Of a stretch of 54,013 nucleotides of DNA, positions 4,471 through 9,971 are shown piece by piece. The notes beneath the pieces are model-generated. The model saw only the letters and a list, made by a program, of their open reading frames with translations, made no database searches and was not told the DNA's origin. Origin of the DNA: Pseudomonadota bacterium (lineage in GTDB: Bacteria; Pseudomonadota; Gammaproteobacteria; Acidiferrobacterales; Acidiferrobacteraceae); assembly GCA_021794275.1 (NCBI GenBank), contig JAJYRD010000020.1, positions 1-54,013 of the forward strand, written 5' to 3'. How positions within the stretch are numbered: the stretch's first letter is position 1; the number at the start of each line of letters is the position of its first letter. A program made the translations under genes and the position numbers.

Positions 4471-5550
4471 GTCCTCTTGGAGCGCCCACGCGCGAGGCGG
4501 GGGCTGCGCCACAGCCAGCGCTCGCTCATCGCGATCATTCTCTGTGCCGTGATCAGTGGGGCGCAGCGACCGACCGCCATCGGCGAATGGGTCAAACGCC
4601 TCCCGCCTACGATGCTGCGTTGCCGCGGGACCGCCGATGGCCACGAACCGCCCTCGGAACCTACGATCCGCCACTTGCTCCAGACTCTCGATATCACGGC
4701 GCTGGAGGAGAAGCTCGGGGGTTGGCTACACGCGCGCAGGGCGGAGGACGAGCCGGTCGCTGGGTGTGCGCGCAAGACGAGCGCTTGATGGCAAGACCCT
4801 GCGGCGGATCGCGGGACGGGGCGGCCGGCCCGGCAAGGGGTGGCAGCGCTCGGGCACACAAGCCGTGTGGTCTTGAATCAGGCCGAGGTCACGACCAGGC
4901 CTCCGAACAGCAGGCGGCGAAGCCCTTGCTCGACCCATTGACCTTGAGGGGTCGGGTGGTGACCGCCGACGCCCTGCATACCCAAACAGAGACCGCACGC
5001 TATCTGGTCGAAGAGGAGAAGAGGCGCACTACCTGCTCACGGTCAAGGACAACCAACCAATCCTGGCCGACATCGCAAGCCTCCACCGGGAGGCCTTTCC
5101 CCCTTAACCACACGACGACGCATAAGGCCCATGGGCGCGTCGAGACCCGACGCATCTGGGTGAGTGACACGTTAAACGGCTATGTGACGTTTCCCCATGC
5201 CGCCCAGGTAGCCTGTGTCGAGCGCGAGATCTTCCACGTCAGAAACCACAAGACCACCCTCGAGCGGGTCTATCTCATCACGAGCCAGCCCCGGGCAGAG
5301 GCTGGCCCCACCAGCTCTTGGCGCAGAACCGGGGCCATTGGGCTATCGAGAACCGCCTGCATCATGTGTGTACATGGCCTATGATGAGGACCGCTGTCGG
5401 GCCCGCAAGGGGCACACGCCCCGCACCCTCGCCTGCCTGCGGAACTTCGCCATCAGCTTGTTGCGTCTCTTCCGTATCTCGAACATCAAAGCGGCGCTGC
5501 GGGGCTTGGCGGCCCAGGCCGACCAGATCTTGGCGATGCGGCGTCTGTAG
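4471..5550 (+). pseudogene. ISAs1-family transposase, shattered by frameshifts
   Basis: Fragments of one DDE transposase can be read in order across all three forward frames. They are LRHSQRSLIAIILCAVISG and PPSEPTIRHLLQTLDI (from 4477), ALDGKTLRRIAGRGG (near 4785, first catalytic Asp), LLDPLTLRGRVVTADALHTQ (from 4925, second Asp), EAHYLLTVKDNQPILADIAS (near 5024), HGRVETRRIWVSD (near 5130), AQNRGHWAIENRLHHV (near 5320, catalytic Glu), and a C-terminal YDEDRCRARKGHTPRTLACL segment ending at 5550. At least five frame changes are needed to join them, so no active enzyme can be made. The order and motifs fit the ISAs1 family (DDE_Tnp_ISAs1). The last 174 coding bases recur at 6947-7120. Confidence 0.88.
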
Positions 5551-5743
5551 GGCCCGAAAGCCCAAGGACCAGACCCGCGCGGGGTCCCCCCGCCACAGCG
5601 TTCGCCTCGTTCTCGCCTCTTCAGGAGAAAATCTCCCCCCAAAGCGGTCCCTCTGCGTATTCTGGCCACCCACCCCGTCGACTGGGTCCGCCTCAGGCGT
5701 TCGATGATCGAGGCGCTGCGCTCGCGGCGCGACTTTGACGGGA
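5377..5743 (+). repeat. 367-bp direct repeat, copy A
   Basis: This stretch matches 6947-7313 base for base by eye, at a constant offset of 1570. It contains the 3' end of the transposase remnant plus 193 bp beyond its stop. The two copies enclose the zeta-toxin module. Confidence 0.95.
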
Positions 5744-5787
5744 TCGTGGGGGGCCAGAGAGCGATGGTGAGCAAGCGAAAGTCGGTT

Positions 5788-5793
5788 TATAAT
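5788..5793 (+). promoter_or_regulatory. TATAAT -10 element before the toxin module
   Basis: A perfect TATAAT lies six bases before the ATG at 5800, the same geometry as the birA -10 and start. A weak -35 (TGGTGA, 5765-5770) is 17 bp upstream. Transcription would begin at or near the start codon, so the first gene may be translated from a leaderless mRNA. Confidence 0.4.
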
Positions 5794-5799
5794 GCTTTA

Positions 5800-6027
5800 A
5801 TGAATAGTCTGCCTTTGGCGCCCCCTGCCGCTTCGTCCGGCGAAGACCAAGATGGCCTCTTGGAGGTCGATATCCAGCGTCTGGAAGCTATGGTTCCGCA
5901 GATGGCGGTCGCTGCTAAGGCTGCTCAGGCCGACGCGTATGCTCGACTGGCAACTCTCCATGCACGGATTGCGCAAGAGATTGTGGCCCTTCGGAAGAGT
6001 GAGGCGTGCGCCCCGTCCTCACGGTGA
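5800..6027 (+). CDS. Small protein paired with the zeta-like toxin (possible antitoxin)
   Basis: A 75-residue, mostly helical and acidic protein. A Pro/Ser-rich start is followed by a segment rich in Ala, Glu and Gln (about residues 20-65), likely one long helix or helical hairpin. The gene overlaps the downstream kinase gene by 22 bp, so the two are probably co-translated. Small genes immediately upstream of zeta-toxin-like kinases often encode their antitoxins; here that is inference from position only, and I recognise no known antitoxin domain. An in-frame ATG at 5764 would add 12 residues. The frame also runs back into the 367-bp repeat. The start at 5800 is preferred because of the TATAAT just before it. 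Confidence 0.6.
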   Translation: MNSLPLAPPAASSGEDQDGLLEVDIQRLEAMVPQMAVAAKAAQADAYARLATLHARIAQEIVALRKSEACAPSSR

Positions 6028-6662
6028 TTGCCGGGCCTAATGGCTCCGGCAAGTCATTTTTGACCGCTATTCTCAGGCGTCAGCCCTGGTTCTCGCGTAC
6101 ACCTTTTCTGAATCCTGATGAAATCGCCGCCCGCCTTGGGGATCCCGGTAAGCTGGAGGTCATCCTTCAGGCGGCACGTGACGCAGAGGCCCAGCGAGAG
6201 TGTTGGCTGGTGGAGCGCCGTAGTTTTGCCTTCGAGACCGTTTTTTCCGCTCCCGACAAGGTCGCATTCTTGCGGCGTGCGCAGGACGCCGGCTATCGCA
6301 TTCGGATGTTTTTCTTGAGTACCGGCAATCCGGAAATCAACGCCGCCCGTGTGGCCCGTCGTGTTATGGCGGGCGGACACGATGTCCCTATCACAAAAAT
6401 TATCAGTCGTTATGGTAAGTCCCATGTTCAGGCCGCGCAGGTGGCCCCCTGGGTGGACCGTATGTATCTCTTCGAGAACGCCGTGGATGGCGAAACCCCC
6501 GTTTTATGTGCTTGGTCCGTCGCAGGACAGTGGCAAGTGCGGCGCAACAAGACGATCCCCGTCTGGGCCACGCCGATCATTACGCGCCCTACCGTGTCCC
6601 CGCAGCCGACGGGAGCCGAGAATCACCGGGCCTTCGAGTACCCACAGGCCGGACCGCGGTGA
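6006..6662 (+). CDS. Zeta-toxin-like P-loop kinase
   Basis: A 218-residue protein opening directly with a Walker A motif, VIAGPNGSGKSFLT (residues 7-20). NPDEIAARLG near residue 37 and RRSFAFETVFSAPDK near 75 follow; the latter is a conserved block of zeta toxins and related small P-loop proteins. INAARVARRVMAGGHDVP near 115 and KIISRYGKS further on match the same family, which in characterised members phosphorylates UDP-N-acetylglucosamine and blocks cell-wall synthesis. The start is GTG at 6006, because it places the P-loop at the N terminus; it overlaps the small upstream gene. The C-terminal 40 residues look unconserved. Function as a toxin is inferred from family and from the gene pair. 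The module sits between two copies of a 367-bp repeat, suggesting it arrived with the insertion sequence. Confidence 0.8.
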   Translation: MRPVLTVIAGPNGSGKSFLTAILRRQPWFSRTPFLNPDEIAARLGDPGKLEVILQAARDAEAQRECWLVERRSFAFETVFSAPDKVAFLRRAQDAGYRIRMFFLSTGNPEINAARVARRVMAGGHDVPITKIISRYGKSHVQAAQVAPWVDRMYLFENAVDGETPVLCAWSVAGQWQVRRNKTIPVWATPIITRPTVSPQPTGAENHRAFEYPQAGPR

Positions 6663-6946: not shown

Positions 6947-7120
6947 GCCTATGATGAGGACCGCTGTCGGGCCCGCAAGGGGCACACGCCCCGCACCCTC
7001 GCCTGCCTGCGGAACTTCGCCATCAGCTTGTTGCGTCTCTTCCGTATCTCGAACATCAAAGCGGCGCTGCGGGGCTTGGCGGCCCAGGCCGACCAGATCT
7101 TGGCGATGCGGCGTCTGTAG
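6947..7120 (+). pseudogene. C-terminal fragment of ISAs1-family transposase, second copy
   Basis: 57 codons identical to the last 57 of the transposase remnant ending at 5550, from AYDEDRCRARK to the stop after ILAMRRL. The 5' part is absent: the break lies at 6947, where the sequence joins unrelated DNA. It lies within the second copy of the 367-bp direct repeat. Confidence 0.9.
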
Positions 7121-7313
7121 GGCCCGAAAGCCCAAGGACCAGACCCGCGCGGGGTCCCCCCGCCACAGCGTTCGCCTCGTTCTCGCCTCTTCAGGAGAAA
7201 ATCTCCCCCCAAAGCGGTCCCTCTGCGTATTCTGGCCACCCACCCCGTCGACTGGGTCCGCCTCAGGCGTTCGATGATCGAGGCGCTGCGCTCGCGGCGC
7301 GACTTTGACGGGA
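6947..7313 (+). repeat. 367-bp direct repeat, copy B
   Basis: Identical to 5377-5743. The repeat stops at 7313, four bases before the -35 box of the tRNA-Thr promoter, so the island ends almost exactly at the start of that transcription unit. Confidence 0.95.
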
Positions 7314-7316
7314 GCC

Positions 7317-7345
7317 TTGCTGCAATGCGTGCGTTTCCCTAAAAT
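7317..7345 (+). promoter_or_regulatory. Promoter of the intron-bearing tRNA-Thr gene
   Basis: TTGCTG at 7317-7322 and TAAAAT at 7340-7345 are separated by exactly 17 bp, a strong sigma-70 pattern. The tRNA starts 17 bp after the -10. Its survival next to the island edge suggests that the tRNA gene is still transcribed. Confidence 0.8.
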
Positions 7346-7362: not shown

Positions 7363-7650
7363 GCCCGCATAGCTCAGCTGGTAGAGCATCTGATTTGTAA
7401 AATTGCACCTGCGTTCGGAAACGGGCGCAGTGGAGATGGCTAAAACGGGGAAACCTTGGGGTACCAGCCTCGTGGCAATCCCGTGCTAGCCGCGATGAGC
7501 GGCGAGTGTAGAGACTTTACACCATCCACCTAAACCACGCCTTTGCGCGGCAAGGTGAAGAGAAAGTCCAGACCCCAAACCATTCGTGGGCTGCGAAAGC
7601 AGTAGTGGGTATGAATCAGAGGGTCGGGGGTTCGAATCCCTCTGCGGGCT
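7363..7650 (+). tRNA. thrU: tRNA-Thr(UGU) interrupted in the anticodon loop by a group I intron
   Basis: The exons are 7363-7398 and 7614-7650. Joined, they give a normal tRNA: acceptor GCCCGCA/TGCGGGC, D-arm AGCTCAGCTGGTAGAGC, anticodon stem TCTGA/TCAGA, loop TTTGTAA with anticodon TGT (7396-7398), and T-loop TTCGAAT. The discriminator base is T, as in the other tRNA-Thr of this window. The CCA end is not encoded (TAC follows), whereas the four tRNAs further on all encode CCA. The position upstream of tRNA-Tyr, tRNA-Gly, tRNA-Thr(GGU) and tuf is that of E. coli thrU. Without splicing, the tRNA could not read ACA codons. Confidence 0.95.
7399..7613 (+). ncRNA. Group I intron (IC3-like), 215 nt, inserted after anticodon base U36
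   Basis: The intron interrupts tRNA-Thr between positions 36 and 37. The 5' exon ends in U, the intron ends in G (7613). The guide GCA at 7405-7407 pairs with the anticodon UGU, with a U-G wobble at the splice site. P2 is a 9-bp helix (7409-7417 with 7422-7430) capped by GAAA. P3 can form from GATGG 7435-7439 with CCATC 7522-7526. The P4/P5 region holds GGGGAAACC (7447-7455). P7, with the guanosine site, is GTGTAGAGACT (7506-7516) with AGTCCAG (7565-7571). P9 is CTGC-GAAA-GCAG (7591-7602). The order and motifs closely follow the Azoarcus tRNA-Ile(CAU) intron as I remember it. There is no endonuclease ORF. Self-splicing is inferred from the complete core. Confidence 0.93.
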
Positions 7651-7706: not shown

Positions 7707-9971
7707 ATGGAAAAATTTCCCACAGACGCCGAGAACGGCGCGCTTGCCTACTATGCCGACCTCGAGGCGCGGCTCGCCAGGGTTCGGGAGCGCGTGCGCC
7801 GTCCGCTCAGTCTGGCCGAGAAGATCCTGCTCGCGCACTGGGTGGACCGTGGCGGATTGCCGGTGCCGGGGTCCAGCACGGAGGCCTTTCATCCTGATCG
7901 CGTGGCCATGCAGGACGCTACGGCCCAGATGGCCTTGCTGCAGTTCATGAGCGCGGGGCGCGCCGAGGTGGCGGTGCCCACGACCGTGCATTGCGATCAC
8001 CTGATTCGCGCCAAAGTGGGTGCGCGCGAGGATCTCGCGATCGCCGAGAGCGCGAACGAGGAGGTTTACGCCTTCCTCGCCTCGGTGTCCGCCAAGCATG
8101 GCATCGGCTTCTGGGAGCCCGGGTCTGGCATCATCCATCAGGTGGTGTTGGAGCACTACGCGTTCCCAGGTGGCCTCATGATCGGCACGGATTCGCATAC
8201 CCCGAATGCGGGGGGGCTAGGCATGCTCGCCATCGGGGTGGGGGGCGCAGACGCCGTGGATGTGCTGGTGGGCATGCCTTGGGAGTTGCAGTGGCCGAAG
8301 CGGATCGGCGTGCAGCTCGTAGGCGCCCTTTCGGGCTGGTCCAGCGGTAAGGACGTGATCCTGAAGCTCGCGGGCCTTTTGACGACGAGCGGCGGGACCG
8401 GCCACATCATCGAATACTTCGGGCCGGGCACCGCGTCTTTGAGCGCGACCGCAAAGGCCACGATCACCAATATGGGCGCTGAGCTTGGGGCGACGACTTC
8501 GGTGTTTCCCTTCGACGACCGCATGGCGGCCTATCTCGAAAGCACGGGGCGCAATCGGCTTGCCACCAAGGCCCGGGCCTTGGTGGCCCACCTGACGGCT
8601 GATCCCGAGGTGGCGGCCCACCCCGAGGACTATTTCGACCGCGTGGTGACTATTGATCTTGCTACGCTCGAGCCGCATGTGGTGGGTCCGCACACGCCGG
8701 ACCTGGCGCGGCCGATCTCGGCCTTGGGTGGCGAGGTTCGTTCCCATGGCTATCCGGAGGCTTTGCAGGCCGCGTTGATCGGTAGCTGCACGAACTCGTC
8801 TTACGAGGATATCGGGCGCGCAGCCCATGTGGCGCGCCAGGCGCGCGCTTTAGGCCTCAAGGCCAAGGTGCCGTTCCTCGTGACCCCGGGCTCTGAACAG
8901 GTGCGCGCCACGATAGAGCGGGACGGGTTACTCGCCGACCTCACGGCCATAGGCGCCACCGTGCTCGCCAACGCCTGCGGGCCCTGCATAGGCCAGTGGC
9001 AGCGCGAGGGCGTAGCGCCAGGCACACCGAACAGCATATTGACGTCCTACAACCGCAATTTCCCGCGACGCAATGATGGCAATCCCGGCACCCATGCCTT
9101 CATCGCAAGCCCTGAGGTTGTAACCGCCTATGCCTTGACAGGCAGCCTCGCCGAAAATCCACTTGCCGGGATCGAAGTGGACGGCAAGGTCGTGTCCTTG
9201 ACCGCCCCCTCCGCCGCGGAACTCCCGAGCGCGGGTTTCGTGGGCGGGACCGAGGGTTATAGGCCGCCCCGGGAAGGGGGCGTGGCCGTCCGCATCCGCG
9301 AAGACAGCGAACGTCTGAGCCTGCTCGCGCCATTTCCGGCACCGCGGCCCGAGGATTTTCAGGGGCTGCCGATCTTGCTGAAAGCGGTCGGCAAGTGCAC
9401 GACCGACCACATATCGGCGGCCGGGCCCTGGCTCAAGTACCGCGGCCATCTCGATCGGATCAGTGACAACCTTTTCCTAGGGGCCACCAACGCCTTCAGT
9501 TCGGCCGTAGGGACGGGTTTCGATGTCATGAAGGGCGAAGCCGATGTCCCGCTCGCGGCCCTCGCGCGCGCCTATAAGGCCCAGGGTCTTGGCTGGGTGG
9601 CGGTCGGCGACAGCAACTACGGGGAGGGCAGTTCGCGCGAGCACGCGGCCATGTCCCCGCGCTATCTGGGCGCGCGCCTGATTCTGGTGCGCAGTTTCGC
9701 ACGCATTCATGAGACCAATCTGAAGAAGCAGGGTGTCCTGCCACTCACATTCGCCGATCCTGGCGACTACGACCGGCTCGAGCGGGAGGACCGCGTGAGC
9801 GTGCCCGGCATAGGCGCGATCGAGCCGAACAGTTTTGTACGGCTCGTCATCACGCGCGCGGATGGCCGGACTTGGGAGATGGAGGCGCGCCATACCTTGA
9901 CGGCCGAGCAGATCAACTGGTTCTGGGCGGGCTCGGCCTTGAATCTCATGGGGGCGCGCTCACGCGCGTAA
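7707..9971 (+). CDS. Aconitate hydratase, mitochondrial-type
   Basis: This cytosolic TCA-cycle enzyme converts citrate to isocitrate through cis-aconitate on a [4Fe-4S] cluster. The 754 residues and domain order fit the shorter mitochondrial-type aconitase rather than AcnA (about 890) or AcnB (about 865). The cluster ligands are Cys361 in IGSCTNSSYED and Cys424/Cys427 in ANACGPCIGQW. The substrate-binding blocks IGTDSHTPNAGGLGM (159-173), YNRNFPRRNDGNP, and the C-terminal GDSNYGEGSSREHAA are all intact. The ATG at 7707 is the only start near the conserved N terminus; no clear ribosome binding site precedes it. The gene splits the usual tRNA-Thr / tRNA-Tyr-Gly-Thr-tuf cluster, 57 bp after tRNA-Thr, with no obvious promoter of its own, so it may be transcribed from the tRNA promoter. 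Confidence 0.95.
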   Translation: MEKFPTDAENGALAYYADLEARLARVRERVRRPLSLAEKILLAHWVDRGGLPVPGSSTEAFHPDRVAMQDATAQMALLQFMSAGRAEVAVPTTVHCDHLIRAKVGAREDLAIAESANEEVYAFLASVSAKHGIGFWEPGSGIIHQVVLEHYAFPGGLMIGTDSHTPNAGGLGMLAIGVGGADAVDVLVGMPWELQWPKRIGVQLVGALSGWSSGKDVILKLAGLLTTSGGTGHIIEYFGPGTASLSATAKATITNMGAELGATTSVFPFDDRMAAYLESTGRNRLATKARALVAHLTADPEVAAHPEDYFDRVVTIDLATLEPHVVGPHTPDLARPISALGGEVRSHGYPEALQAALIGSCTNSSYEDIGRAAHVARQARALGLKAKVPFLVTPGSEQVRATIERDGLLADLTAIGATVLANACGPCIGQWQREGVAPGTPNSILTSYNRNFPRRNDGNPGTHAFIASPEVVTAYALTGSLAENPLAGIEVDGKVVSLTAPSAAELPSAGFVGGTEGYRPPREGGVAVRIREDSERLSLLAPFPAPRPEDFQGLPILLKAVGKCTTDHISAAGPWLKYRGHLDRISDNLFLGATNAFSSAVGTGFDVMKGEADVPLAALARAYKAQGLGWVAVGDSNYGEGSSREHAAMSPRYLGARLILVRSFARIHETNLKKQGVLPLTFADPGDYDRLEREDRVSVPGIGAIEPNSFVRLVITRADGRTWEMEARHTLTAEQINWFWAGSALNLMGARSRA

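Follow-up and report, generated by a model that had tools for sequence, protein, structure and literature searches.

A small, very probably self-splicing group I intron splits the sole tRNA-Thr(UGU) gene detected in the Acidiferrobacteraceae

Results

The split tRNA gene and its surroundings

The DNA analyzed here, called the window in the following, is a stretch of 54,013 nucleotides from contig JAJYRD010000020.1 (assembly GCA_021794275.1) of a gammaproteobacterium of the family Acidiferrobacteraceae, and carries a tRNA-Thr(UGU) gene in two halves at positions 7363-7650 of its forward strand. The 5' exon (7363..7398) comprises the 5' strand of the acceptor stem, the D arm, the 5' strand of the anticodon stem and the loop nucleotides U32, U33, U34, G35, and U36, and the 3' exon (7614..7650) extends from A37 to the discriminator U73 and is followed by UACACC, without an encoded CCA. 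Between U36 (7398) and A37 (7614) lies a group I intron of 215 nt (7399..7613), identified by its match to the Rfam model RF00028, by covariation and by the uninterrupted state of the gene in sister families; host, site, length, and junctions are all as described in an initial annotation of this DNA. After removal of the intron, all four tRNA stems are paired and the anticodon is UGU in each of the 16 family loci compared, among which 68 of the 73 exon positions are invariant, as against 145 of the 215 intron positions. A possible promoter (TTGCTG - 17 nt - TAAAAT, 7317..7345, forward strand) was recognized by eye, of which TTGC and TANAAT recur in 12 of 12 aligned loci from the same genus; a consensus promoter scan reported none.

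Further upstream, two identical direct repeats of 300 nt (5377-5676 and 6947-7246) enclose a small ORF (5704-6027), which matches no Pfam family, and a gene resembling Zeta toxins (6006-6662, Pfam E 3.9e-8); together they possibly represent a toxin-antitoxin insertion. Downstream, an aconitase gene (7707-9971, 754 aa) is placed between the split gene and the series Tyr-Gly-Thr(GGU)-tufB, so the proposed membership of a thrU-tyrU-glyT-thrT-tufB cluster holds only loosely here. In locus L108 (Gammaproteobacteria bacterium SB0678_bin_7), an intron-bearing Thr gene is directly followed by Tyr, Gly, and Thr(GGU). CCA is encoded by each of the 41 further distinct tRNA genes detected by ARAGORN in the retrieved loci of the window's own genome and by all 13 intron-less sister genes read, whereas the split gene lacks it in 15 of the 16 family loci. 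Only G015 has it, in an intron-bearing gene, and the loss of CCA therefore does not coincide with the intron. Two genes of the PolyA_pol family, which includes CCA-adding enzymes and poly(A) polymerases, are encoded in the window's own genome.

Structure of the intron

The guide triplet GCA (7405..7407) can pair with U34-G35-U36 (7396-7398) as P1, with a U·G pair at the 5' splice site, in all 16 family loci, and the UU in front of it (7403..7404) is able to form P10 with A37-A38 (7614-7615). These elements are followed by the P2 hairpin (7409..7430) with a GAAA loop (7418-7421), the 5' strand of P3 (7433..7439, partner 7522-7527), the region of P4 and P5 (7445..7484; P4 at 7445-7449/7480-7484, P5 at 7454-7455/7474-7475), P6 with the P6a hairpin (7485..7507), the 5' strand of P7 (7511..7518, partner 7563-7569), P8 (7528..7556), and the P9 region (7572..7610) with a GAAA-capped hairpin (7591-7602). 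P7 consists of GACUUU/AAAGUC plus a G-C pair over the bulged A7512 and, by analogy, would be the guanosine-binding helix. The terminal G7613 is in place, and all 16 family introns end in ATG. With its GAAA-capped P2 and P9, the intron has what we take to be an IC3-like look.

For an assessment of this fold, the expected helices were written onto an alignment of the 16 family loci (A1), and the pairs were counted. As many as 98.4% of the 1286 cells are paired, and 16 of the 81 pairs show changes on both sides. The real values for the percentage of pairing, the two-sided pairs and the covariation score were each matched by none of 500 shuffles, and the number of further pair types was reached by one of 500; sliding the helix partners lowered the pairing to 35-44%. 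Compensated changes occur in eight of the nine pairs of P2 (92.4% of cells paired), one pair of P3 (100%), three of P6a, three of the distal part of P8 (87.1% of cells paired there) and one of P9a, and the unvarying P1, P4, P5, P7, P9, and P10 cannot be judged by covariation within the family. A second alignment of 16 rows (A2) combines the family type with Leu introns, whose core sequence is similar, and other Thr introns. From this alignment, RNAalifold recovered P2, P4, P5, P7, P8, and P9 unaided, and 30 of its 46 pairs vary on both sides. Single-sequence folding of the intron yielded z = -2.87, with equally stable structures in 2 of 200 shuffles. The minimal ribozyme outlined in the initial annotation, with GCA guide, GAAA-capped P2, P3, P7, GAAA-capped P9, and terminal G, is present in all its helices, and the fold as a whole is backed by covariation.

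The match to RF00028 covers positions 7405-7588 over the full model length with 29.4 bits (E 9.6e-6, 421 bases searched). A covariance search, which had been suggested as a check, thus gives a significant E value and a score below the curated Rfam cut-off (gathering score 50), which explains why a gathering-level Rfam scan of the window is silent at the intron. As judged from this match and from the count of helices and covariation, the P3-P8 core by which Rfam defines group I introns is present and no helix is lost. An RF00028 search of the contigs of the window's own genome returned no match, probably because the first look of the search drops so divergent an intron; introns were found instead by direct cmscan and by a covariance model built here from A2 (R1), whose score of 215.8 bits for this intron is circular, since the intron itself is part of the training alignment. 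Weak matches to RF03000 and RF01684 in the window were taken as chance.

The initial annotation had also predicted that ordinary tRNA finders would miss the gene. Indeed, ARAGORN at default settings reports four other tRNAs in the window and is silent on the split gene, and with introns allowed it calls a tRNA-Tyr(GTA) with a 213-nt intron at this locus, that is, with the wrong anticodon; the Rfam tRNA model scores 13.9 bits there. According to passages of the tRNAscan-SE 2.0 paper, that program is not designed for group I intron detection, and 36 genomes lack fMet or Ile2 calls owing to group I introns (PMC8450103).

Occurrence in the family and need for the gene

The precursor of 288 nt was searched in 96 genomes, including 18 of the family and 39 others of the order. 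Full-length matches were obtained in 16 of the 18 family genomes, with 100% identity for the window itself and 81-98% for the other 15; one of these genomes is a single contig of 99% completeness. G001 gave no precursor match and G012 an unrelated tRNA match only (assemblies of 150 and 170 contigs), and the 39 genomes from other families of the order yielded no full-length match. In 13 intact sister-family loci that were read, both exons directly adjoin each other. An intact tRNA-Thr(UGU) gene was detected by pattern in none of the 18 family genomes, the one-contig genome included, so the second copy that had been named as evidence against the split gene did not turn up. Note that the pattern requires GGTTCRA in the T arm and was relied on within the family only, whose T arm fits; it matches known intact genes and 26 of these 39 genomes from outside the family, gives no match in the remaining 13 and misses the intact genes in L069 and L078. 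In the window's own assembly, which is 92.7% complete, the genes for Thr(GGU) and Thr(CGU) are intact, and a search with R1 revealed this single intron only.

The codon ACA accounts for 20 of the 285 Thr codons in 11 genes of the window, among them ORFs read by eye as rpoB, rpoC, and tufB. By the standard wobble rules, ACA is read by the anticodon UGU only and not by GGU or CGU. Since ACA is in use and UGU should be its sole reader, a functional tRNA is to be expected from the split gene, and its splicing in vivo is strongly implied by the sequence data.

The distances between the introns track those of 1.4 kb of downstream sequence in 15 of the 16 loci (Mantel r 0.89, 0 of 2000 permutations), G015 being left out because of its differing downstream sequence, and this agreement points to an old, vertical inheritance. 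The 16 family introns, at 210-223 nt, are too small to encode a homing endonuclease and contain none; they look immobile now. An intron of 211 nt in locus L105 is identical to that of G008, a genome of the window's own genus.

Thr(UGU) introns in other bacteria

A pattern scan of 84,980 species genomes, which demands one type of intron core and misses other types, returned 20 loci. Family-type exon 1 and intron sequences are present in 13 of them (L094-L100, L102, L105-L107, L109, L113), all from MAG records named Proteobacteria bacterium or, once, Acidiferrobacteraceae bacterium, and in a further six (L101, L103, L108, L110, L111, L112) the Thr(UGU) intron belongs to other bacteria; L104 (Actinomycetota) is an uninterrupted tRNA gene and was rejected as a false positive. 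The same U36/A37 site is occupied in the betaproteobacterial L101, L103, and L111, the alphaproteobacterial MAG locus L110, the gammaproteobacterial L108, L211, and L241, the Firmicutes MAG locus L112 and in L259 from Tritonibacter mobilis. The triplet GCA is found within the first 36 nt of all 24 distinct Thr introns, 16 from Acidiferrobacteraceae and eight others.

The split gene of T. mobilis (NZ_CP015231.1, about 65215-65552) resides on a 1.26-Mb plasmid and contains an intron of 252 nt (RF00028 34.1 bits); an identical stretch exists in a second strain of the species (NZ_CP110385.1). Part of this intron query is matched by 1,269 plasmid records, 1,262 of them at 60-80% identity and, among 13 matches listed, over query bases 184-296 in the 3' part of the intron. 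In pCTX-M3 (L288, NC_004464.2 61964-62072), the match is situated in a gap without annotation, close to an AAC(3)-IId gene, and possibly represents what is left of an intron. In L112 (100-789, minus strand), a Thr(UGU) gene with a 617-nt intron is located between tRNA-Val and tRNA-Tyr; this intron holds an HNH-like ORF of 137 aa (Pfam HNH E 3.4e-4, just under the cut-off) and gives no RF00028 match even when trimmed to 421 bases. At L110 (4034-4425, minus strand), the split gene is preceded, at a distance of about 180 nt, by another Thr-like 5' half of partial similarity. A pattern scan of viral contigs and a phage search for the Thr intron found nothing.

Host genes of related introns

R1 matched 45 of the 57 genomes searched from the order, 72 of the 369 from the class and, at E 1e-6, 41 of the 398 from the phylum. 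Host genes were assigned by a split-cloverleaf script, which gave no call for 10 of the loci L114-L247 and an ambiguous one for 14; ambiguous junctions were set by hand for L110, L111, L202, L210, L211, and L234, and by score for the rest. The census does not include the class matches in G112, G161, G241, G301, and G340 and the order matches in G026 and G030. A host call is available for 64 of the 72 class genomes (G004, among the eight left, was combined with a Thr intron identical to its own), and the hosts are Leu(UAA) in 25 cases, CAU-type tRNAs in 24, Arg(UCU) in 16-17, Thr(UGU) in three (four with G004), Arg(CCU) and Lys(UUU) in two each, Lys(CUU) and Ser(UGA) in one each, plus one Leu whose junction is doubtful. 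The 27 phylum loci that were read comprise one without a call, L263 as a doubtful Arg and otherwise Leu(UAA) or Arg(CCU) genes, with no Thr among them. As indicated by these numbers from class and phylum, Thr is a rare host.

Among the other hosts, Arg(UCU) genes split after U34 (L139, L141, L143, L168, L172-L175, L195, L196, L199, L203, L204, L206, and others) appear to be common in Gammaproteobacteria, and their introns form one clade of 16 (SH-aLRT 100); the introns L177 and L221, recorded as "*(UUA)", are most likely Arg(UCU) as well. We know of no report of tRNA-Arg(UCU) as a group I intron host. Introns in Lys(UUU), Lys(CUU), and Ser(UGA) are single or paired cases (L202, L210, L234, L159), with an RF00028 match in L234 only. 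A tRNA-fMet-type gene in G039 (L136) is split after U33 by an intron of 657 nt, the 3' part of which recurs in G048 (L086), and in L079 the stretch preceding the core is ORF-like by eye.

When RF00028 was applied to 15 of these loci, eight scored 49.7-91.1 bits (L241, L217, L211, L234, L101, L110, L089, L160) and L156 29.1 bits, and no match at E 0.01 was obtained in the other six (L108, L112, L202, L210, L159, L139). The same model gave no match at E 0.01 in L053, L061, and L064 scanned with long flanks; trimmed to 421 bases, L108 scored 28.2 bits, L053 31.5 and L064 21.4 (E 0.0024). Every score of an Acidiferrobacteraceae-type intron tested is below the curated cut-off. The assignment of L112, L202, L210, L159, and L139, which lack a match, is based on R1 or motifs in common, together with the position and the split tRNA gene.

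Guide triplets and intron tree

A guide triplet matching the host is present in the first 36 nt of 118 of 122 tRNA introns from eight host/position classes, compared with a mean of 75 and a maximum of 88 when the hosts were permuted; the permutation was used because the triplet test is loose, and the related introns it counts are not independent. Within one set of closely similar introns, those of Thr, Lys, and CAU have different guides (GCA, GAG, and GUG, respectively), as re-aiming would predict.

An intron tree was calculated by a quick method from 224 columns for 108 of 130 introns, with 44 of its 105 inner branches drawn open; L177, L221, one Leu row with a doubtful junction, all introns longer than 335 nt, L112, and L259 are not on it. 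The host labels require 11 changes on this tree, compared with a mean of 59.9 after shuffling, and these counts cannot separate gain from loss or give the direction of a switch. The 16 family introns and that of L108 form a clade of 17 (SH-aLRT 99), the beta- and alphaproteobacterial Thr introns group together (93), and those of G291 and G234 form a third group (98), for which a position nested inside the CAU introns was rejected, as the tree shows it as sister to the Lys(CUU) and CAU group (98 for the whole set of 39). Thr introns are thus found in three places, which needs three changes, two of them forced by starred branches.

Discussion

The best explanation of the locus is a group I intron of small size that very probably splices itself and has become fixed within the anticodon loop of the one tRNA-Thr(UGU) gene detected in Acidiferrobacteraceae, and a probability of roughly 93% is assigned to this reading. 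At the level of sequence, it is borne out by the split cloverleaf, the conserved fold, the exact insertion relative to the sister families, the failure to find a second copy and an inheritance that tracks the neighboring DNA. After transcription, the guide GCA would pair with the anticodon UGU to form P1, and a guanosine bound by P7 would attack the chain after U36. The freed U36 would then attack after the terminal G, by which A37 would be joined to U36, and the spliced tRNA-Thr(UGU) would receive its CCA from a nucleotidyltransferase and read ACA codons.

The lack of CCA, which sets the gene apart from 41 other tRNA genes of the genome, might also be read as decay of a dead, intron-disrupted gene, with ACA being read by another tRNA. 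Such a decay is very improbable for a gene whose exons are invariant at 68 of 73 positions and paired in every stem in 16 of 16 genomes, whose ribozyme core is kept as well and for which none of the 18 family genomes has an intact substitute; moreover, ACA occurs in long housekeeping ORFs and would not be read by the GGU or CGU anticodons. A more serious, albeit unlikely, possibility is that the intron requires a host protein in vivo and is not truly self-splicing. The core is complete with no helix lost, and P2 and P9 carry the GAAA caps also known from the self-splicing Azoarcus tRNA-Ile intron, which argues against such a requirement, while the modest RF00028 score would be compatible with it, as would the dependence of some group I introns on proteins such as CYT-18, mentioned in parts of a review (Hausner et al., PMC3984707).

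Many of the family genomes are MAGs, as are by title all 13 records with family-type loci from the scan, and an insert created by assembly or binning might be suspected for this reason. The chance of such an artefact is nevertheless negligible in view of the same insertion in 16 genomes, where 15 copies differ from that of the window at 81-98% identity and one is part of a single-contig genome, and of an intron divergence that follows the flanking region. Equally far-fetched would be an enzymatically spliced insert of the archaeal (BHB) type or another non-ribozyme element: the anticodon loop is a site where BHB introns also lie, as stated in a section of PMC4033280, but the group I core, the terminal G, the U·G pair at the 5' splice site, the RF00028 match, and the bacterial host all speak against it.

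Among the known systems, the self-splicing tRNA-Ile intron of Azoarcus, with GAAA loops on P2 and P9 and an insertion between U36 and A37, is a close counterpart. The Azoarcus tRNA-Ile(CAU) intron and its Ile2 relatives share with the Thr intron the small size, the U36/A37 site and a three-base guide against the anticodon; they differ from it in the host and in the guide, which is GUG in the Azoarcus type and GCA in the Thr(UGU) intron. Ile2 introns are listed for Acidovorax and Burkholderia in the tRNAscan-SE 2.0 paper, as far as its relevant passages go (PMC8450103). The tRNA-Leu introns have a similar core, and the Acidiferrobacteraceae-type clade is placed beside the Leu intron L153, although weakly (SH-aLRT 63), whereas they are inserted after U34 and carry the guide GAG instead of an insertion after U36 and the guide GCA. 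Cyanobacterial tRNA-fMet introns with an endonuclease ORF, similar to L136 in this study, are likewise group I introns of the anticodon loop; unlike the Thr intron, L136 is split after U33 and is 657 nt long, with ORF-like sequence recognized by eye only. Of the Thr introns outside the family, that of L108 belongs to the Acidiferrobacteraceae type, whereas L112 differs from the family introns by its HNH-like ORF.

A section of PMC4033280 gives cyanobacteria, alpha- and betaproteobacteria as hosts of group I introns. The insertions in cyanobacterial Arg(ACG), Gly, and Lys genes that parts of PMC5733544 refer to as group I introns were not accepted as precedents, as their 22-49 nt were judged too short for a ribozyme. 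Among the matches listed from the open-access full-text literature, none describes a bacterial tRNA-Thr gene with a group I intron, and the portions considered of PMC3984707, PMC5733544, PMC6341768, PMC2813288, and PMC6125680 do not name a Thr host; an earlier mention is possible in subscription journals, which were outside this scope. As far as this literature goes, tRNA-Thr(UGU) is a new host gene for a known class of ribozymes.

The family introns probably derive from a pool of tRNA anticodon-loop introns that change their host via the guide triplet. Going further, it appears slightly favored that these group I introns generally constitute such a host-switching pool, in which two guide bases re-aim the intron at another anticodon, that the U36/A37 site of Thr(UGU) was entered at least twice, or three times by parsimony (by the Acidiferrobacteraceae type, the beta/alpha type and the sister type of the Lys(CUU)/CAU introns), and that the reading of ACA in Acidiferrobacteraceae depends on a ribozyme and on the post-transcriptional addition of CCA.

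With these introns, tRNA-Thr(UGU) joins the short list of bacterial tRNAs known as hosts of group I introns, and the split gene, which the annotation tools tried here miss or mis-type, explains a tRNA that is apparently missing from the genomes of one acidophile family. The guide of three bases goes with the host tRNA in a natural series of related ribozymes, in which the movement of introns between tRNA genes becomes testable, and such tests extend to a named and completely sequenced species, Tritonibacter mobilis. In the Acidiferrobacteraceae themselves, ACA codons can be read only if the intron is spliced out.
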